Positions 1,857 through 34,823 of a stretch of 42,915 nt of DNA are shown one piece after another. The position numbers and the translations under genes are program-made. Each line of letters opens with the position of its first letter. Position 1 is the first letter of the stretch. This DNA comes from a virus, in IMG/VR virus record IMGVR_UViG_3300045284_000413, positions 1 to 42,915 of that record. The stretch is one strand, 5' to 3'. Under the pieces are notes generated by a model that was not told the origin of the DNA, made no database searches, and saw only the letters and a program-made list of their open reading frames with translations.

Positions 1857-2135
1857 CTAAGCTTTTGGCGGGATCGCGAAGTGGTCATGCACTGGAATCG
1901 GCCCGCCGTCCGGGCCACTGACCTCATGCCGCTCAATCGCTTTCCCGTAAATCTTCGGCAGCAGGTACGCCTCCAGATGGGGCGCCTTTCCCGCACTCAT
2001 GCGCGCCTTGGCATTCTCTTGGTACTCGCTCGATTCAAAGAACTTATGCCAGCAATCCCGTAATTCGCGCGTCGTCCGATTGGGCGTGCCTTTCGATCGG
2101 CCACCGAGTTTGCGATCGCCTTTCTTGAACGGCAT
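1857..2135 (-). CDS. terS: terminase small subunit (putative)
   Basis: A 92-residue protein directly upstream of the large terminase. The N-terminus, with GGRSKGTPNRTT, resembles the DNA-binding start of many small terminases and related packaging proteins. The middle PHLEAYLLPKIYGKA is also typical. It would recognise viral DNA and load the large subunit. It is the first gene after a 159-base gap holding a promoter-like extended -10 at 2150-2158. Assignment rests on the motif and position. Confidence 0.7.
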   Translation of the reverse strand: MPFKKGDRKLGGRSKGTPNRTTRELRDCWHKFFESSEYQENAKARMSAGKAPHLEAYLLPKIYGKAIERHEVSGPDGGPIPVHDHFAIPPKA

Positions 2136-2149
2136 CCTATTGCATCGCT

Positions 2150-2158
2150 ACTGTAGCA
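2150..2158 (-). promoter_or_regulatory. extended -10 promoter upstream of terminase genes
   Basis: The minus strand reads TGCTACAGT, an extended -10 (TGn plus TACAGT). The expected start of transcription is about 2143, giving only about 8 leader bases before the ATG at 2135. No good -35 box is visible. The same string GTGCTACAGT occurs on the plus strand at 17462-17471, just before another gene start, which supports function. Confidence 0.5.
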
Positions 2159-2294
2159 CGGTGTTCCTCATGTCGGCGGCTCCTGGGGAGGGGGAGGCAC
2201 GAATGCAACGATCAGAAAATCCAAATCATGCCTCGCGTTACCGACCGACGGGGGCGCGCTCGAAGTCCGGTCCACGCGATCGCACCGCCACGAG

Positions 2295-2690
2295 CTACGT
2301 TCCGACTTGCTTGCCATTGACGAACACTTTCCCACCGCGCGCCAGATATTCGGCCGTTTCCATCGCACACTCGGCGTTGCAGAACCCCTCTGAGCTATAG
2401 AGCAACGCGCCACAATTGAGACAATGCCCGGTCGGCTCGGGACCAACGTATTCCTCGTAGTCGCCCATCCCACACGATGCGAACTGCTCGACCGTTGGAT
2501 CGATAATCCGCCCCTCTGGAGTGACGAGCCACCAATGAGCCCGACGTCCGTCAAACGGGCAAAGATAGTGACCGCGCACACGACGCAATTCTGGGAACGC
2601 CTCAGCCATCGCTTTCGTTGTATCGACACACTTTCCGCGCGGGTCGGTCGGTTGATGGGCGGCAATCCACTGCTGATAGTTCGGGCTCAT
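2295..2690 (-). CDS. conserved phage protein with C-terminal zinc-ribbon
   Basis: A 131-residue protein. The N-terminal half (KCVDTTKAMAEAFPELRRV, then RAHWWLV and DPT) resembles a phage family of unknown function that I recall from many dsDNA phages. The C-terminal half has CLNCG and a later CNAEC, a probable zinc site. The frame 2168-2665 overlaps it but looks like a shadow. It is the last gene of the early block. A 159-base gap follows that holds the terminase promoter. Confidence 0.78.
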   Translation of the reverse strand: MSPNYQQWIAAHQPTDPRGKCVDTTKAMAEAFPELRRVRGHYLCPFDGRRAHWWLVTPEGRIIDPTVEQFASCGMGDYEEYVGPEPTGHCLNCGALLYSSEGFCNAECAMETAEYLARGGKVFVNGKQVGT

Positions 2691-2799
2691 GCGTCGTTCT
2701 CAACGGACGCTGAAACTAACTCGGTCGGTCGATGCGGTAGCCACGGACGATGAAGCCATCACGACACGTCACCGCGCGCTAAAGTCTTCGTCTGGTGGC

Positions 2800-3024
2800 T
2801 CATCGCGTCACCCGCCGATAGTCTTTCGCACCACAGATGACGCAGACACGCTCCTGCACGAGACGATCCGCGCCACGCACCCATAACTTCGGCTCAGTCT
2901 CTGGATCGAGATACGCCGGATCGCTGATCGACGGCAATCGATGCTGGACTTCATAGACACCGAAGTCTGTCCAGCGATCCCACTGGTGGAACAACCAGTG
3001 CCAGCGCGCGCGATCCGGGCTCAT
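2800..3024 (-). CDS. hypothetical small protein with CxxC
   Basis: A 74-residue protein, Trp- and Arg-rich at the N-terminus (HWLFHQWDRWTDFG), ending in a VCVICGAKDYRR segment that could be half of a zinc site. The ATG at 3024 overlaps the upstream TGA (ATGA). I do not recognise a family. Downstream, 2691-2799 holds only very short frames and no gene I can support. Confidence 0.65.
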   Translation of the reverse strand: MSPDRARWHWLFHQWDRWTDFGVYEVQHRLPSISDPAYLDPETEPKLWVRGADRLVQERVCVICGAKDYRRVTR

Positions 3025-3266
3025 GGGTGCGCTCCAGCAGGCCGCGCAGGAACAACTCCACGCGCATCAGCGAGATAGGCGTTTGCCGCATCGCGCACTT
3101 CTGTGATTGCCTGCTTTGATTCGTCGCTAAATCCACCGATGCCGTCCGGCCAGATTTGCGCCGTGGCCCCGTGCAGCATCGCGCTGGGAACGGCGGCCAA
3201 GACAAACCACGAGAACGCCTCGTCCGGCATCAGCGCCAACGCCAGAAGTAATCGCATTCGGTTCAT
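3021..3266 (-). CDS. hypothetical protein with PARPAG tail
   Basis: An 81-residue protein that begins with a hydrophobic stretch (MRLLLALALMPDEAFSW). Its last residues, VPARPAGAHP, are encoded by one copy of the recurring linker repeat (3032-3050). The same tail ends several neighbours that are otherwise unrelated. ATG at 3266 overlaps the upstream stop. Function is unknown. Confidence 0.62.
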   Translation of the reverse strand: MNRMRLLLALALMPDEAFSWFVLAAVPSAMLHGATAQIWPDGIGGFSDESKQAITEVRDAANAYLADARGVVPARPAGAHP

Positions 3267-3499
3267 ACGTCGTCTCTCCCTTCCTTCACAGCGGGCCGCG
3301 CAGGCTCACTCTTCCCGGCCTTGTCGAAGTGGATAGCGGTTGGGTATACCGGAGCATTCAGAGCCAGCCGCTTATTAAATAGCACGATGCTGGCCGTCAG
3401 CCGCTCGTTGTGTTCGATGATGTGATTCTGGCAAGCCGAGCCATCAGGGAGCGGTGACGAGTAGAACCGGCCGCACCAATCGCAGCGGTAGACAGGCAA
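3263..3499 (-). CDS. small zinc-finger-like protein with PARPA tail
   Basis: A 78-residue protein starting MPVYRCDWCGRFYSS, with a further Cys and His in SACQNHIIEHNE, which fits a small Cys2His2 or treble-clef zinc site. The start is TTG at 3499, with GGAGA a few bases upstream supplied by a repeat copy (3506-3523). The C-terminus SEPARPA comes from another repeat copy (3287-3304). The domain resembles small phage zinc fingers, and no function is assigned. Confidence 0.66.
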   Translation of the reverse strand: MPVYRCDWCGRFYSSPLPDGSACQNHIIEHNERLTASIVLFNKRLALNAPVYPTAIHFDKAGKSEPARPAVKEGRDDV

Positions 3500-3526
3500 T
3501 CTAGTCTCCAGTGGGCCGCGTGGCTC

Positions 3527-3679
3527 TCATCGTGTAGGCGCTTTCTGAATCATGGCGACGGCGACGACGATCTCAGGACGAGTCGATTTGCCGCAGTGCT
3601 GACAATCGAAGAACACTTCGACATCGCCGTGCTTCTCCTTCATCGCTGTGAGGAGTTCGATGGCACGTTGAACGGTCAT
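3527..3679 (-). CDS. very small zinc-ribbon protein
   Basis: A 50-residue protein starting MTVQRAIELLTAMKEKHGDV, then FFDCQHCGK. The N-terminal pattern is common in short phage proteins of unknown function. The ATG at 3679 overlaps the upstream TGA (ATGA). The longer open frame to 3892 belongs to the upstream gene. After its stop, an untranslated repeat copy provides the ribosome site of the next gene. Confidence 0.68.
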   Translation of the reverse strand: MTVQRAIELLTAMKEKHGDVEVFFDCQHCGKSTRPEIVVAVAMIQKAPTR

Positions 3680-3951
3680 ACTTTCTCTCCAGCGGGCCGC
3701 GCAGGCCGCAATAAATCGTAGACGGCCACATCGGGTTCTCGCCCTTCCTTCGCCGCGATAAACCTCACGGCAGCCGAGGCCGCATCCGCATAGCCCGCGC
3801 TGATATTCCAGTCGTCGCACTGTCCGGCGCGGTAGGTGCGCCAGATGGCATCGCGCATGGCCTTGGGTAGCGAGAACCAGTGACGACGACACATGAACAT
3901 CTCTGGAGGCACGCGCATGTCGCAGGCAGTGGCGTGACAGGTGTGAGCCAT
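3676..3951 (-). CDS. conserved phage Cys/His protein (MPPEMFMC type)
   Basis: A 91-residue protein with the pattern HTCHATACDMRVPPEMFMCR, then HWFSLPKAMRDAIWRTYRAG. This matches a small family seen in many phage accessory regions. The Cys and His residues suggest metal binding. The tail LLRPARPAGEKV is encoded by repeat copy 3687-3705, which replaces whatever end the family normally has. It starts right after the upstream TAA (TAAATG). Confidence 0.8.
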   Translation of the reverse strand: MAHTCHATACDMRVPPEMFMCRRHWFSLPKAMRDAIWRTYRAGQCDDWNISAGYADAASAAVRFIAAKEGREPDVAVYDLLRPARPAGEKV

Positions 3952-4317
3952 TTACTGTCCTTCTCCAGCGGGCCGCGCAGGGACCGCCCTCTTGGCATAT
4001 TCATCGGCGAAGTATTTCTTAAACTTATCGAGAGACGGCTGAATGGGTTGCCCGCTCATGTCTACCGGCAACCACATGCGTTCGACCTGCTGCTTGGCGG
4101 CATCAATCGCGACGTTCCACTGAGCCTGCGCAGGCGTGAGCCGACTCCCTTTCTGTCCGGCCTTCATGACCATCGACATCTCGCGCAGCGCGAACTGAAG
4201 CAACAGCTTCTCTGCCGCCCCGACAAACACGTGCGCACCCCACGTACCAGTACCGCCGAGTCCTTCTGGATGGTGGAAGAGGTCATCAGGCGGCAAGCCG
4301 CATTTGAGGCATGTCAT
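3952..4317 (-). CDS. hypothetical protein with N-terminal CxxC and PARPAGE tail
   Basis: A 121-residue protein starting MTCLKCGLPPDDLFHHPEG, a possible Cys2His2 zinc site, followed by a helical segment with KKYFADEYAKRA. The tail VPARPAGEGQ comes from repeat copy 3963-3981, which also contains the GGAGA ribosome site for the next gene. ATG at 4317 overlaps the upstream TGA. I do not recognise the family. Confidence 0.68.
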   Translation of the reverse strand: MTCLKCGLPPDDLFHHPEGLGGTGTWGAHVFVGAAEKLLLQFALREMSMVMKAGQKGSRLTPAQAQWNVAIDAAKQQVERMWLPVDMSGQPIQPSLDKFKKYFADEYAKRAVPARPAGEGQ

Positions 4318-5585
4318 ACGTTTTCCTTCAAGGGCCGCGCAGGGACCGCCACGCCGGGAGGATCAGGCAACGGCATCCAGTGCGTCGGGTAAATCCGATA
4401 CCCAGCATCACCGCGCCACCAGCCGCCTGCTTCATCTCCTGTCACCCACCATGCGACGAACGGTACACGTCCACCAATCATCATCAGGTAGGCGTGCCCA
4501 TCCTTCGGTGCTGTCTCAATCTTCTGCCAGCGGTCCGGTGGGGGCGACGGGATCGCGGCTGCACTCCCAGATTCGCGGCTCTGTCGTGATGCCTCTCGCC
4601 AACCACGGTCCCACGCGAGCGCCTCAATCGCGGAATCGCCCTTGAAAATATCAGGGATCTCCACCTCATGAGGAAGTTGCCGCGTATTCGGATGCCGCCT
4701 CTGCCACCACGCTTTGTAGCAGCGGGGACAGGCTTCGCCGTCCATCTGGCAATCAGAACAGCGCATACCGATGGGAGCTGAGGCGTGTTCTTTGAGGTTT
4801 ACGCTAATCATGTCAATTTCCTGTGGGGGTGGGGGCGACGGGACCGCCAGGCTCTCAGCTTTGACGAGTGCCGCTTCGATGGCTGCTGCCGCCGCTGCCC
4901 ACTGATCCCAGGTCACGCCCCCGTCTATCCAAGGGCGTGGAAACACCTTGTAGGCCAATCGTAGCGCGGCGATCAACTCGTCAAGGTCAGGGGGCGACGG
5001 GATCGCCTCCCCGCCCGTCAGTTTTTCGAGATCAGCAATTGGGCAATCAGCACCATGAGTCAACGTCGCCCCCCATCGATGCTCGCAGTTCACGCACAAC
5101 ACTTCGACAGTTCCATCTTTGCCGCGCGTCACCGTGTAGCGTGCGATCAGCGTGCGAAGAGCATCGTGAGGCACCGGCACGAGCGACTCGGGCACCGTGG
5201 GATCATCGAGGGGCACCACGACGGGTTCACGCATCGCTTCTACTTTTTGCGCGCGAGTTTCAGTGCCAGCCAAATGATCACGGCTGGCATCACGAACAGA
5301 ATCGAGATCACTTCCAATCGGCCGGTCCAAATGTCCATCAGAACTCTCCTCCTTCCCAGACACCGGCACGAGCGAGTAGGGCACCGTGGGATCCTCCAGG
5401 GGCACTACGACGGGTTCACGCGGCTCGGACGCGGTGTTCCGCTGTTCGACGCCACGCGCACACGCATGGAACGCCAACATTGCCGTCGAGAGCGTATCCA
5501 CGAGCGCCGGAGTGGCGTGATCAGGGTCGGACGGTCGTAACCACTCCGCGGCGAATAAGCGAGCCAGTCGAGCGGCATCACTCAC
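4314..5585 (-). CDS. large modular protein, possibly several fused small genes; C-terminal DUF551-like domain
   Basis: An open frame of 423 residues starting with GTG at 5585 (GTGA overlap). It looks like modules joined by short linkers. The order is an N-terminal helical unit, a VVVPLEDPTVP segment, a VVVPLDDPTVP segment, a unit with VNCEHRW and a DCP Cys, a unit with RCSDCQMDGEACPRC, and a final WQKIETAPKDG to YPTHWMPLPDPP stretch that matches the DUF551 family of phage proteins. Linkers AIPSPP, AVPSPPPP and AIPSPPP separate units. Internal ATGs at 5234 and 4811 (AGGAAA upstream) could start separate proteins. The two PLxDPTVP segments are a 61-base DNA duplication. It ends in the PARP tail. 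Confidence 0.62.
   Translation of the reverse strand: MSDAARLARLFAAEWLRPSDPDHATPALVDTLSTAMLAFHACARGVEQRNTASEPREPVVVPLEDPTVPYSLVPVSGKEESSDGHLDRPIGSDLDSVRDASRDHLAGTETRAQKVEAMREPVVVPLDDPTVPESLVPVPHDALRTLIARYTVTRGKDGTVEVLCVNCEHRWGATLTHGADCPIADLEKLTGGEAIPSPPDLDELIAALRLAYKVFPRPWIDGGVTWDQWAAAAAAIEAALVKAESLAVPSPPPPQEIDMISVNLKEHASAPIGMRCSDCQMDGEACPRCYKAWWQRRHPNTRQLPHEVEIPDIFKGDSAIEALAWDRGWREASRQSRESGSAAAIPSPPPDRWQKIETAPKDGHAYLMMIGGRVPFVAWWVTGDEAGGWWRGDAGYRIYPTHWMPLPDPPGVAVPARPLKENV
5172..5232 (-). repeat. 61-base direct repeat, copy A
   Basis: Matches 5362-5422 at 56 of 61 bases by eye. Both encode PVVVPL(D/E)DPTVP-type segments in the same frame. The two copies flank a small membrane-peptide frame (5240-5338). 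Confidence 0.88.
5240..5338 (-). CDS. nested single-pass membrane microprotein
   Basis: A 32-residue frame inside the 4314-5585 open frame but in another phase. It has a strong ribosome site (GGAGGAGAG, about 6 bases before the ATG at 5338). The product has a short N-terminal part, a hydrophobic core ISILFVMPAVIIWLALKL and a positive ARKK end, a classic single-pass membrane peptide with a cytoplasmic tail. It stops five bases before an ATG (5234) that may start the next unit. It lies exactly between the two 61-base repeats, which suggests insertion by duplication or recombination. Whether the outer frame is also translated here is unknown. Confidence 0.6.
   Translation of the reverse strand: MDIWTGRLEVISILFVMPAVIIWLALKLARKK
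5362..5422 (-). repeat. 61-base direct repeat, copy B
   Basis: Second copy of the repeat at 5172-5232, with five differences by eye. Together the copies bracket the nested membrane microprotein. Confidence 0.88.
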
Positions 5586-6031
5586 AGCGTAGCCTCATCA
5601 TCGTCATCGTCAGCCGTGTCATCGAAACCGTCCGCGTTGTTGTAATCGTCGTTGTCGTCGGCCGGAGGTAGCGCGTGACCTGGCGGCAACGCGACGTTCA
5701 TCAGCGGTCGCGGCTGCGTTTCTTCACACGCCTTCAGCGCCGCCTCTTTCGTGCAGGGCGTGATCGCGTAGATCGACCCCGCGCCGATCAGCTTCGAGTA
5801 GCCTTCCACCGCGCCTTCCTGCACCACGGTCCCCGCCGGACAATAGCCGCGCCCTGAGATGTAACCGGGCGCTTTCATGGTCCGCTCGCGCGCTTCGAGC
5901 GCCGGCACGTCGATGCGAAACAGCACCGCTTGCCCGTAGGCCTCCGTCGTCACGTAGCCGACGTATCGCTGATGCCCGAGCACGTCCACGATGGCCCACC
6001 CGTCAAACTTCGATTGCTGCGTCTCAGTCAT
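5582..6031 (-). CDS. conserved phage protein (GWAIVDVLGH family) with acidic tail
   Basis: A 149-residue protein. Its start, with FDGWAIVDVLGHQRYVGYV, and the later YAITPCTKEAA match a family found in many phages of Gram-negative bacteria, whose function I do not know. The C-terminus is a run of Asp and Glu after a Pro/Asp/Asn-rich stretch, which could mimic nucleic acid or be a flexible tail. ATG at 6031 overlaps the upstream TGA, and its TGA overlaps the next GTG. Confidence 0.85.
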   Translation of the reverse strand: MTETQQSKFDGWAIVDVLGHQRYVGYVTTEAYGQAVLFRIDVPALEARERTMKAPGYISGRGYCPAGTVVQEGAVEGYSKLIGAGSIYAITPCTKEAALKACEETQPRPLMNVALPPGHALPPADDNDDYNNADGFDDTADDDDDEATL

Positions 6032-6504
6032 TTCCGGCCCCCAATCGAGTCAATCGGCCACTCCCGTTCATGCTGTGCCCGCAAGGCTTTGTCCAACAGT
6101 GCGCGCTCCTCTTTGCTCAACGTGGCGACATAGGCCCGCGCCGAGTCAAACGTCACAGGGATCGCCTCCCCGGCCAACTTTTCGATTCGTGCGGCGATAC
6201 CTTCCAGACAGCGCGCGATGGTTTCGTGCGTGTCCCAATGATGACCGACGCGCCATTGTCGCGCGAGAATTCGCAGAAACGCCGCCTCGCGGACACGAGG
6301 ATGACGGCCTTCGAGATCAAGGAGCCGTTCCCAATCCGATTGGCTCTCTGACGCCTCCCCGGCTCCGGCGCGCAACGCGACTGCGGCAATACAGCGTGGG
6401 CAAAAGACATCGCCCTGAAGCACACAGCAATTCTCGTCATCGTGTGAGCAGCGGCAGTCTGTTTCATCGACAGCGATTGATTTCAAGGCCTCAAGTAGTG
6501 CCAT
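6028..6504 (-). CDS. hypothetical protein with Cys-rich N-terminal part
   Basis: A 158-residue protein starting MALLEALKSIAVDETDCRCS, with further Cys in NCCVLQGDVFCPRC, a probable zinc site. The middle part is helical (FLRILARQWRVGHHWDTHE). A segment LAGEAIPVTFDSA carries the AIP-type linker, whose DNA (6158-6172) is identical to 4999-5013. ATG at 6504 is chosen for GGGGAG seven bases upstream. An ATG at 6560 overlapping the upstream TGA would add 19 residues. Function is unknown. Confidence 0.68.
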   Translation of the reverse strand: MALLEALKSIAVDETDCRCSHDDENCCVLQGDVFCPRCIAAVALRAGAGEASESQSDWERLLDLEGRHPRVREAAFLRILARQWRVGHHWDTHETIARCLEGIAARIEKLAGEAIPVTFDSARAYVATLSKEERALLDKALRAQHEREWPIDSIGGRK

Positions 6505-6560
6505 CGGTCGCTCCCCGCTACTTATTTTCGGAAAAGACAAATCACTTCTCGCCGGATTCA

Positions 6561-6947
6561 TCACTTTTTCTCTGAAATCACGCTGGGATCTACCGCATCG
6601 AGGGCCGGTGGTGATTCCAACAACGAATCGACAAACGTGCAGAACGTCTGCTGCGCCTTCACAATATCCACGAGGACGCCAGCTTTCGTCTGCGAGTGTT
6701 CGATGAGCGCCGCCTTGAATTTTTCCCACGCCTCGCGATCGAAACCGGTGATGACTACTTCGCGCGTTCTGAGAATACGCGCGGGACGCGCCTGCTGCGC
6801 ATGAATCTCGATCGAGGCTTGTTCATAGCCGCGTTCATAACCACGCTGATACCCCTGCCGTAACGCCACGTCCATCGCTTGGCCGAGCGCCCAGTAACAA
6901 ATAGGCGGATCGATGTCCGCGAACATCGGATGAATCGGGTGTGTCAT
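6561..6947 (-). CDS. hypothetical protein with GY(Q/E)RGYE repeat
   Basis: A 128-residue protein with a short tandem GYQRGYERGYEQ near residues 32-43 and a helical C-terminal half. GGGGAGAGAG precedes the ATG at 6947. I do not recognise a family. The Tyr/Gly/Arg repeat suggests a short helical or self-interacting segment. Confidence 0.66.
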   Translation of the reverse strand: MTHPIHPMFADIDPPICYWALGQAMDVALRQGYQRGYERGYEQASIEIHAQQARPARILRTREVVITGFDREAWEKFKAALIEHSQTKAGVLVDIVKAQQTFCTFVDSLLESPPALDAVDPSVISEKK

Positions 6948-31739: not shown

Positions 31740-32813
31740 CTAGCTTACTCCTGTGCCCGCAGGAGTCAAGGACGTATCCAGCTTCGGCCCAGGGAGGATG
31801 ATCGTCGTATCCGGCAATACGGACTGCATCATCGGGATTTCCCCGAGCCGCACGACATGAAAGGACAGATGGTGGCGCAACGCGATCTGTTCTGAGAGTT
31901 GCCGATGCGTGATCGCCGTGCCGCCCCATTCGGTGAAAAAGCTCATCGAGGATTTCCCGAGGCGCAGCGCCAATTGCGACATGCCCCCGTACGTGCCAAT
32001 GAAGCCTTGCGCGTGCGCGAGGACCGCACTCTGCACCAAGAGATTGGTTTCCACCGTCAAGGGCCAGAGCCGACTCAGGCGCAAGAGGTTCGGATGATCG
32101 GGGACCGGACAATCCAGATGATCATCGGTCGCAAACGGACTATCGAGGACCACCACAGGACTTTGATCCGCGAGTTTGAGCAAGACCGCCGCCGTCGCTT
32201 GTTTCGCGGCTTTATCGGGATACGGCCATGTTTCCCGACTGTAGAACCGCGCCGCGACAAACACCTCGGGTAACACCAACCCATCCGGCAGCGACGGGAT
32301 CGAGAGTCGGCTGTAGACCGTGCGGGCCCCTAACCAAGTCGTCCCACGCCATCCAGTCCAGAACGGGGCCAGTAAGTGAAACATCCACGCCGGATGGAGC
32401 ACGTGATACTTGCGCCCGAGTTTTAGGGTGTCCACGGCATCGCGAAGCACCTGTCGATCAAACGCCGTGACCGTGACTTGCTTCTGAAGGCCGGTACGAT
32501 CCGCTTGCACGTGATTCTCGATGCGGACCTGTTGCGGCGTCCGCATCGCGTAGAGTTCGATCCCCTGGGGACAGGCGTACCACGAGCCGGCCCCGCCTCG
32601 GGTGATGGGGATCAGCCGCTCCGCCGCGAGGCCCAAGGCCTTGAGATGATCGAGAAAGGGAATCCAGTACAACACCTCGAAGCCCACTTCGCCGCGCCAC
32701 GGCCCGACAAGAATTGGCCAGTCGCTATGGATCAAGCGTTGCAGATAGAGCGGCCACGCCAGATGCCGCCAACTGGACCGATGCGTCGGGAGGGTCGTAT
32801 GACGTGACTTCAT
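31740..32813 (-). CDS. glycosyltransferase-like protein
   Basis: A 357-residue protein, last gene of the sugar cassette. ILVGPWRGEVGFEVLYWIPF near residue 35 and the late block FIGTYGGMSQLALRLGKSSM resemble a GT-B-type transferase, the second being the usual nucleotide-sugar binding region. The short KSRHTTLPTHR start is basic. ATG at 32813 overlaps the NeuA-like gene stop (ATGA). The donor sugar is not evident; a CMP-nonulosonate would fit the neighbours. Confidence 0.62.
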   Translation of the reverse strand: MKSRHTTLPTHRSSWRHLAWPLYLQRLIHSDWPILVGPWRGEVGFEVLYWIPFLDHLKALGLAAERLIPITRGGAGSWYACPQGIELYAMRTPQQVRIENHVQADRTGLQKQVTVTAFDRQVLRDAVDTLKLGRKYHVLHPAWMFHLLAPFWTGWRGTTWLGARTVYSRLSIPSLPDGLVLPEVFVAARFYSRETWPYPDKAAKQATAAVLLKLADQSPVVVLDSPFATDDHLDCPVPDHPNLLRLSRLWPLTVETNLLVQSAVLAHAQGFIGTYGGMSQLALRLGKSSMSFFTEWGGTAITHRQLSEQIALRHHLSFHVVRLGEIPMMQSVLPDTTIILPGPKLDTSLTPAGTGVS

Positions 32814-33547
32814 GCAGCCACCAACACCGCAGGGAGTGTCACCACGCCGGCCGCCACCCACCGCTCCGCCGTCGCGAAGTCGTCTTCCGTGTTGATGTCG
32901 AGCCAAGACGGCCCGCTGCATTCGTACGCACGGATCCGGTCCCCGCTAATCGAGTGCTGTGCGGTGACCGTGATCGTCCACGCCATCTCCAACCCAGCGT
33001 TTTGCACCACGAACCGTTTCAGCGTCTGGGACGGCCGCGAATGCCAATACGTCCCATCGGATTCTTTGTACGGTAAGAGCGGCAACAACAGCCCATCCCT
33101 CAGCACCTGAAACATTTTCGCGGGATGTTCGAGGACGGGACGGACGGCGCGGATCGAATCAACGTGTGGTTCGTCCTGTAACATCCGCCACGCGACGCGG
33201 ATGTCCGTGGGGGATCGAAACGGCGTCGTCGGGCGCAGAATCGCAAACGCCTCCGGCTTGGGCGTGGTCTGGCCGAACCAGCGCAGACAGTCGGTGACCC
33301 AGACTATATCGGCGTCCTCATCCGCGAATCCTCTGGCGCGAAGATGCGCATGGTCCGCGCCGTAGTCCTTCGCAATCCGACTCGTGGTCAAGTCTTCGGT
33401 GGAGACAACGACCGACGCAAAGATGCCGCTCGCCTTCGCAGAGGCGATGCTATACGCGAGCAAGGGATGCCCCGCCAAGAGGCGCGTGTTTTTCCCTGGA
33501 CAGCGTTTCGAGCCGGCCCGCGCCGGAATCAGCGCGACAATCGTCAC
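32810..33547 (-). CDS. neuA: CMP-N-acylneuraminate cytidylyltransferase-like (NeuA family)
   Basis: A 245-residue enzyme predicted to join CTP with a nine-carbon nonulosonic acid (sialic, legionaminic or pseudaminic type), giving the CMP-activated sugar. The start VALIPARAGSKRCPGKN carries the catalytic R-x-G-S-K-x(5)-N nucleotide motif; RPTTPFRSPTDI and WLDINTEDDFATAE are family blocks. GTG at 33547 overlaps the cupin stop (GTGA). Length is normal. Bacterial paralogues include PseF, LegF and NeuA, and the exact sugar cannot be told. Confidence 0.86.
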   Translation of the reverse strand: MTIVALIPARAGSKRCPGKNTRLLAGHPLLAYSIASAKASGIFASVVVSTEDLTTSRIAKDYGADHAHLRARGFADEDADIVWVTDCLRWFGQTTPKPEAFAILRPTTPFRSPTDIRVAWRMLQDEPHVDSIRAVRPVLEHPAKMFQVLRDGLLLPLLPYKESDGTYWHSRPSQTLKRFVVQNAGLEMAWTITVTAQHSISGDRIRAYECSGPSWLDINTEDDFATAERWVAAGVVTLPAVLVAA

Positions 33548-33888
33548 GCCGGCACCCGATCGTCGAAGACGGGCGTGCTCGCCTCGAAGAACACACACTC
33601 GGTGTCGGCAAGCACCTGATGGATCACGCCTGGCGCAATGTGATAGCTCTCGCCAGGTCGCATCGGCACTTCCGCAATGGCCCCATCCGCGTCTTTCCAG
33701 CGCACCGTGGCTCGGCCAGACACCAGATGAAAGGTTTCATCTTTCCTGACGTGATACTGCATCGGGCCTTGACTGCCGGCGCGCATCGTCAGGATCTTGC
33801 CGATGTAGTCCTTCGTCTCGGCGATCAGCAGTTCCTGGCCCCACGTCTTCGGCCCGAGCTCGCGCGGCTCGAATCGTTCTGGGATCAC
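33544..33888 (-). CDS. cupin-domain protein of the sugar cassette
   Basis: A 114-residue single cupin. KTWGQELLIAETKDYIGKIL, then MQYHVRKDETFHLVSGRATV and PGESYHIAPGVIHQVLA give the two cupin motifs (H-x-K-x-E and H-x-x-x). It resembles the small cupins found beside nonulosonic acid genes and mannose-6-phosphate isomerase-like domains. It may bind or isomerise the sugar. GTG at 33888 with AGGAG seven bases upstream is preferred to earlier starts. Confidence 0.8.
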   Translation of the reverse strand: MIPERFEPRELGPKTWGQELLIAETKDYIGKILTMRAGSQGPMQYHVRKDETFHLVSGRATVRWKDADGAIAEVPMRPGESYHIAPGVIHQVLADTECVFFEASTPVFDDRVPA

Positions 33889-34823
33889 ACGCGCACTCCT
33901 GACTCCTGTTCGGCTTGGGTGCCGATTTGCCATTTCCCGTCCACGAGCCAGCGGCGCATCTTCGAGATCGGTGCGTACTCACTGGGATAGAATTTCTTCA
34001 CCCCATCACCGAGGGCCTGATGCGCCCGGTCGAGATCCCGGCGCAGTTTCCGCAATCCGGATGGCTCAATCGAGAACGCATGGTCGGTCCCTTTGTTCGC
34101 GCGATTGCTCGTGAAATGCTTTTCGATGATCCGGGCGCCGAAGGCATAGGCCACCATCGCCATCGCGATCCCTGAGTCATGGCCCGACCAGCCAATCACC
34201 AACTCGGGATACCGCTGTTTCAGCGTGACGATGCACCGCAAATTCAGTTCGCCGAAGTCGCGGACCGGATACGCCGCCGTGCAGTGCAAGAGCGCCAACG
34301 GCACATGCGGCGCGATGAGATTCACGGCGCGATCAATATCGTCGGCCCCGCCGCCACCTGTCGACAGAATGACGGGCACCCCCAACCCGGCCACGTGCCG
34401 CAACAGCGTGGAATCCGTCAAGCCGCCACTGGCGATCTTAATTGCCGGCACGCCGACGCGCATCAAGCACTCGGCGCTCGCTTCATCGAAGGCCGTCGCG
34501 AAGAAATCGACGCCCGCGCTTTTCGCCACACACCGCAAGCTCACGTACTGCGCTTCATTGAGTTCCAACGCATCCCGATGGGCCCCGTAGGTCGCGCCGA
34601 AGCTGTGCGTGTGGGCGTACGGCTGCGCGCGCATAGCTGGGGTATACAGCGTGGCGTTGTCCCGCTTCTGGAGTTTCACCGCGTTCGCCCCGCAGGCCGT
34701 CGCCATCCGGATCAGACTGGCGGCGGTCTCGACCGATCCGGCATGGTTGTGCCCAAGTTCGGCCACGAGATACGCTGGGGCATCGTCCGCGATCCGGTGC
34801 CCATTGAGAATCAATTCAGACAT
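33885..34823 (-). CDS. neuB: N-acetylneuraminate synthase-like enzyme (NeuB family), without SAF domain
   Basis: A 312-residue enzyme that would condense phosphoenolpyruvate with an acylated hexosamine to make a nonulosonic acid. Visible blocks are VAELGHNHAGS, NAVKLQKRDN, IKIASGGLTDSTLLRHVAGL, VILSTGGG, LLHCTAAYP, IGWSGHDSGI and IIEKHFT with GTDHAFSIEP. Bacterial NeuB has about 340-350 residues with a C-terminal antifreeze-like SAF domain that closes over the partner active site. Here the chain stops at KMRRWLVDGKWQIG plus a short tail, so SAF is missing. A KDSA-like or altered reaction is possible. Confidence 0.85.
   Translation of the reverse strand: MSELILNGHRIADDAPAYLVAELGHNHAGSVETAASLIRMATACGANAVKLQKRDNATLYTPAMRAQPYAHTHSFGATYGAHRDALELNEAQYVSLRCVAKSAGVDFFATAFDEASAECLMRVGVPAIKIASGGLTDSTLLRHVAGLGVPVILSTGGGGADDIDRAVNLIAPHVPLALLHCTAAYPVRDFGELNLRCIVTLKQRYPELVIGWSGHDSGIAMAMVAYAFGARIIEKHFTSNRANKGTDHAFSIEPSGLRKLRRDLDRAHQALGDGVKKFYPSEYAPISKMRRWLVDGKWQIGTQAEQESGVRV

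Follow-up and report, generated by a model that had tools for sequence, protein, structure and literature searches.

A linker repeated at the borders of unrelated small genes in a phage genome, and junction repeats in related phages

In the IMG/VR virus record IMGVR_UViG_3300045284_000413 (42,915 bases, analysed over its full length and called the window here) we found a short, mostly translated element repeated at six consecutive head-to-tail gene borders. With a probability of about two in three, this linker is a copied gene joint that was put behind unrelated small genes during gene addition, duplication or replacement. Joints of the same kind, with other sequences, recur across a group of related phages, including one insertion that is bounded by such a joint.

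Linker copies in a chain of small genes

The window carries a terminal repeat of 127 bases. On its minus strand the genes P9, P8, P7, P6, P5, P4 and P3 form a head-to-tail chain that runs from 5585 down to 2800. It begins with a long mosaic reading frame (P9, 4314–5585) with internal AIPSPP linkers and a DUF551-like last domain; this domain scores E 0.0012 against DUF551, just under the Pfam cut-off, and P9 scores E 7e-7 against phrog_924. P8 (3952–4317, 121 aa), for which no relatives were found, is followed by P7 (3676–3951, 91 aa) of the CHATxC..PPEMFMCRRHW family (phrog_18063, E 1.4e-27), by P6 (3527–3679, 50 aa; phrog_38414, E 1.5e-4), which has a tail-less end, and by the CxxC protein P5 (3263–3499, 78 aa), which starts with TTG. 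P4 (3021–3266, 81 aa) and P3 (2800–3024, 74 aa) complete the chain. The small genes flanking the linker copies are mutually unrelated. No relatives of P4, P5, P6 and P8 were found in cultured phages, searches with P8 and the terminase returned nothing close, and at the DNA level the only relative among cultured phages was a fragment of a methyltransferase gene.

The linker consensus is the 19-mer CCTGCGCGGCCCGCTGGAG, and every copy lies on the minus strand. Copy 1 (4332–4350, GGCGGTCCCTGCGCGGCCC) joins the end of P9 to the start of P8 and forms an exact 19-nt repeat with 3970–3988. Copies 2 (3963–3981, P8 to P7) and 3 (3687–3705, P7 to P6) match the consensus without mismatch, and copy 4 (3506–3524, 4 mismatches) is located past the P6 stop, just upstream of the P5 start. 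Copy 5 (3286–3304; 3289–3304 as CCTGCGCGGCCCGCTG, divergent beyond) joins P5 to P4, and copy 6 (3032–3050, 1 mismatch) joins P4 to P3. Four copies (2, 3, 5 and 6) are thus present at up to 3 mismatches, with 0.06 expected from dinucleotide shuffles; together with the two weaker ones (1 and 4) they bear out the near-identical element at six small-gene junctions put forward in the original prediction.

That prediction also held that the element encodes a PARPAG(E) tail and, in the same bases, the GGAG ribosome site of the next gene. Five of the six copies are indeed translated, all in one phase, giving (P)ARP, then AG or a variant, then 2–8 residues. The protein ends, given here and below up to the stop codon, are ..VAVPARPLKENV for P9, ..AVPARPAGEGQ for P8, ..LRPARPAGEKV for P7, ..SEPARPAVKEGRDDV for P5 and ..VVPARPAGAHP for P4. 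GGAG is found inside the repeat in only four of the six copies; at the ends of P9 and P5 the repeat diverges and the ribosome site (AAGGA and GGAAGGGAG, respectively) lies just past it. Stop and start codons overlap as ATGA at P9/P8, P7/P6, P5/P4 and P4/P3, and the P8/P7 junction reads TAA-ATG. Copy 4 had been regarded as untranslated and hence as evidence that the nucleic acid itself is kept. It lies, however, in the linker phase of a putative 9-codon mini frame at 3501–3530 (ATG AGA GCC ACG CGG CCC ACT GGA GAC TAG, MRATRPTGD), whose ATG overlaps the TGA of P6, and therefore fails to demonstrate conservation of the nucleic acid alone. When the linker was folded against shuffled sequences no stable or significant hairpin was obtained, and a hairpin or terminator reading was rejected.

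The codons of the linker are rare in the window genome (CCT 4% of Pro, GCT 4% of Ala, GGA 8% of Gly), and the chance of an independent gene giving PARPA by the same five codons is about 1e-4. Judged by these shared rare codons, the linker was copied as DNA, and its copies have a common DNA ancestry and descend from one sequence. The homologues of P7 in four other metagenomic phage contigs (62–76% identity) stop where the linker begins: they end ..VYDMLDPER, ..LYEILEPE and ..LYDMFLARE, whereas P7 reads ..VYDLL and continues with RPARPAGEKV. Comparable linkers were not found in the phages carrying these homologues. About 50 DUF551 homologues commonly end soon past HWMPLPxPP, some with long extensions, and the linker peptide of P9 begins at the point past such an end. 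By comparison with both sets of homologues the linker is an add-on, appended outside the conserved protein bodies. When the genes were exchanged linker by linker in silico, the frame was kept in all 15 combinations, with the next start at most 4 nt from the stop, so that on paper the joint could serve for small-gene swapping.

Junction repeats and gene content in related phages

About 30 related phages, whose terminase has the same position, were found via the portal protein. In 25 regions plus the window we surveyed the stretch upstream of the portal for exact repeats that were non-tandem and no shorter than 15 nt. Both copies were located at gene ends in 15 of 52 such repeats (about 1.1 expected). 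Pairs of junction zones shared a 15-mer in 14 of 5,302 cases within genomes versus 10 of 114,993 between genomes, a ratio of about 30 with a Fisher p of 1e-13 (3e-7, from rounded pair counts, when the window and one gene duplication are set aside); as the pairs are non-independent and genes in the relatives were called with a simple script, these p-values are indicative. Several junction repeats include start-codon or Shine-Dalgarno letters, which raise the number of chance matches; the between-genome control was meant to exclude this trivial effect and corrects for it. For mid-gene zones the fraction sharing a 15-mer was 1/1,950, the single case coming from a genome with a gene duplication (L139), and against mid-gene zones alone the within-genome junction excess reaches only p 0.06.

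The junction repeats of the relatives lie upstream of the terminase, are specific to each genome and are unlike the window linker in sequence. In L135 two adjacent unrelated genes both end in AAK[YH]DGTGKDWR, with TAATG or TAGTG, and the differences between the two copies are mostly synonymous. Neighbouring genes in L146 end in RRFEKELEAVRGERT and RRFEKEFEAIRDERT (RRFEKE.EA.R.ERT), with ATG next in both, and L142 has the tails ..PQEDRP and ..PQEDRKP. L131 contains a duplicated joint of 43 nt; a 74-aa gene begins with its downstream copy, and the mini frame MRLPTRTPRQASA is left between two genes, an oddity like that of the mini frame between P6 and P5 in the window. A repeat in L150 that was junction-like by its coordinates was rejected, as it could not be assigned to a convincing gene border.

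One change in gene content coincides exactly with a repeated joint. The tail RATRHEI[RT]VTR, with ATGA, is common to two genes of L139, one for an HNH protein and one for a cytosine methyltransferase. In L138 the HNH gene is directly followed by a gene beginning MKLSEAIRLGAM; between the homologues of these two genes L139 has three genes, which L138 lacks, and the first of them is the methyltransferase with its copy of the HNH tail. The tail is native to the HNH gene, since that of L138 has its own version (..CHQRAQRHEITVEAPR), and a methyltransferase homologue in L143 shows the natural end ..YTEYIGKQLLEAIR (..YIGKQLLEAIR). Next to the methyltransferase, L139 also carries a duplication with 959-bp spacing (1993–3350) that takes in a zinc-ribbon gene together with the first half of the HNH gene, and because of this partial HNH duplicate a duplication with replacement of the gene body is as likely as an insertion. 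Six further insertions or exchanges (in the pairs L157/L160, L146/L162 and L155/L156) all coincide with gene borders, in most cases with no long repeat present; the near-identical relatives L131/L132/L133 and L130/L134 contained no informative indels. The expectation that gene content changes exactly at the repeats thus agrees with L139 versus L138 and mostly fails for the other six. As close relatives mostly change genes without long repeats, the linker copies are probably footprints of small-gene gain or replacement, and given these repeat-poor changes they may be by-products only.

Both the linker and the genes P2–P12 are absent from all 32 relatives examined. Exact 18-mer matches in IMG/VR numbered 8, all single, unrelated and inside genes, and among 58 loci from a degenerate codon scan for VPARPAG(E/D) none had repeated junction copies. 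A search of other genomes for the 19-mer consensus, suggested together with the prediction, therefore yielded no multi-copy form in IMG/VR and no copy in the relatives. A fixed gene order with divergent junctions in the relatives, which would have spoken against the predicted role, was not what we found, as their gene content differs in this region. No relative shares the small genes of the window, so the events that shaped the window linker are not observed directly.

Under the favoured reading of a copied gene joint, the joint would comprise the 3' coding end of a gene and, in the majority of copies, also the ribosome site of the gene that follows; the borders concerned belong to a hypervariable operon located upstream of the terminase. 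Its copies would have arisen by unequal or short-homology recombination aided by illegitimate joining, and products with intact gene bodies and translational coupling would have survived. The copies might then offer short stretches of homology where additional loss or exchange would do no harm. Much of the predicted joint for swapping small genes is retained: it is an add-on, was copied as DNA, would allow exchange with coupling preserved, and gene content does change at junctions. The other part, homologous recombination at the repeats as the cause of the swapping, is no more than a possibility.

Competing explanations and comparable systems

The closest published case is that of Island3, where gp68, a small gene that has no relatives and comes next after gp67, matches it in the 18 C-terminal residues, at the DNA level as well; from comparison with Brujita, recombination between junction sequences of about 50 bp was inferred, the first such event in mycobacteriophages according to the authors (Pope et al. 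2011, PMC3029335). Our junction test recovers these gp67 and gp68 tails (YQLAHVREVAGRKRRRR and YQLAHVRDVAGRKSRRR) and found no repeats in the right operon of either lambda or P22. As in Island3, neighbouring unrelated proteins have like C-terminal residues encoded by like DNA. A relative without the intervening gene is seen for L139 versus L138; the small genes of the window have no counterpart in any relative. Island3, however, has two copies once, whereas the window has six in series plus additional linker families and stands among many related phages with different joint sequences each. The same kind of joint is therefore now seen as multi-copy and group-wide.

The Island3 precedent also favours an active recombination joint, at which homologous or annealing-type exchange would swap small genes between phages and keep the copies similar, as do the 15 coupled in-frame exchanges, the up to 20 identical bases shared between copies and the L139/L138 change exactly at a joint. 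Against it, close pairs mostly change genes without such repeats, no population variants without a gene between linkers came to light, and integrase, RecT and ERF families were not detected in the window genome. Exact identities among the linker copies extend over just 16–20 nt, which is short for general recombination. We regard active swapping as possible, though on balance doubtful. Also rather unlikely is a group-wide self-renewing border system, in which each genome evolves a private in-frame joint carrying a ribosome site. If it were true, the joint would be copied onto incoming small genes, later exchanges would yield complete, coupled genes, and each lineage would build its private "cloning scar" for small-gene turnover. 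A selected C-terminal peptide (a degron, localisation signal or partner-binding tag), the purely protein-level explanation named as a possible refutation of the prediction, would account for the single phase of all five in-gene copies and the mostly synonymous differences in L135. It appears very unlikely in view of the identical rare codons across copies, the copy outside any normal-length gene, the related AIPSPP linkers in frame inside P9, the unrelated peptides forming the tails of relatives and the P7 homologues without a tail.

An element kept for binding of a factor or the ribosome at translation initiation would explain why GGAG is placed 6–11 nt ahead of the start in four of the six copies. 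Start-associated sequences in cluster K mycobacteriophages, an asymmetric element of 13 bp (GGGATAGGAGCCC) with cluster-wide conservation (PMC3203893), likewise precede the starts of unrelated genes, and all six linker copies are at a junction. The linker consensus differs from GGGATAGGAGCCC, and the linkers code for gene ends and are genome-specific. Moreover, the most conserved part of the linker (CCTGCGCGGCCC) lies upstream of GGAG and is not Shine-Dalgarno-like, two copies without GGAG use a neighbouring site, the element is confined to one gene cluster and forms no significant hairpin; such a role is highly improbable. A series of small genes in which a repeat of about 19 bp comes after every gene would also fit site-specific recombination cassettes of the integron attC or shufflon type. 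No tyrosine recombinase (PF00589) was found in the window genome, the linker has no GTTRRRY core as in attC, its copies are direct with none inverted, and there is no hairpin. The missing recombinase and core site largely refute this explanation, which we consider negligible.

Conserved boundary sequences of lambdoid phages have been proposed as module recombination sites at gene borders (as cited in PMC3029335). They resemble the linker as short border sequences with overlapping stop and start codons, but are common to different phages at the same border, while the linker is repeated at many borders within one genome without being shared between genomes; the 32 relatives gave no copy of it, and IMG/VR no multi-copy form. 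The ninR genes of lambdoid phages are interlinked. T4-type phages reportedly contain PeSL promoter/terminator cassettes, for which modular shuffling between small ORFans was proposed (work of Arbiol in 2010 and Comeau in 2014). PeSLs are intergenic promoter/stem-loop elements; they too are short repeated elements between small genes, but the joints of the window are translated and have no hairpin.

It has long been asked how phages add or swap tiny genes and leave their operons intact; boundary sequences have been proposed, but at most mosaic borders they could reportedly not be identified (PMC3029335). A group of phages in which many genomes contain recent, readable and genome-specific joint copies gives a view of the process of gene turnover. 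The comparison of junctions within and between genomes is applicable to any phage collection. For annotators there is a warning: when small proteins encoded side by side have a C-terminal tail in common, it can be a copied joint and not a functional domain.

Further repeats in the window and in relatives

The whole window contains 16 exact repeats with a minimum length of 15 nt (2.4 expected), 11 of which involve 3.2–6.2 kb. A second linker family is found between the parts of P9 as three in-frame copies of GCG[AG]TCCCGTCGCCCCC on the minus strand, at 4540–4556 (GCGATCCCGTCGCCCCC, ahead of the DUF551 domain), 4831–4847 (AVPSPPPP) and 4990–5006 (GEAIPSPP). P9 further contains a 64-nt repeat, likewise on the minus strand, at 5169–5232 (encoding REPVVVPLDDPTVPESLVPV) and 5358–5421 (encoding REPVVVPLEDPTVPYSLVPV); the copies match at 91% and give the peptide pattern REPVVVPL.DPTVP.SLVPV. 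Exactly between them, on the same strand and out of the P9 frame, lies a hydrophobic frame of 32 aa with a strong ribosome site of its own (5240–5338, MDIWTGRLEVISILFVMPAVIIWLALKLARKK). P9 may thus comprise at least two genes.

A 15-nt repeat at 6158–6172 and 4999–5013 (minus strand) encodes EKLAGEAIP in the gene at 6028–6729 and EKLTGGEAIPSPP in P9, another linker-like piece common to otherwise different proteins. Tandem repeats were observed in two relatives: 9-bp arrays in an early gene (L131 1–180, L130 517–777) encode Ala-Trp/Arg-rich sequence (AWDAWDAW..), a 219-aa gene of L131 contains a long GCC/TAC array (AAAYAADAAA), and a methyltransferase-like gene of L130 has a perfect 28-bp tandem duplication (3950–4005) that apparently breaks its frame. 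In the late region of the window (32810–34823) frames start like sugar-nucleotide enzymes, with VALIPARAGSKRCPGKNTRLLAGHPLLAYSI (cytidylyltransferase-like) and AELGHNHAGSVETAASLIRMA (NeuB-like).
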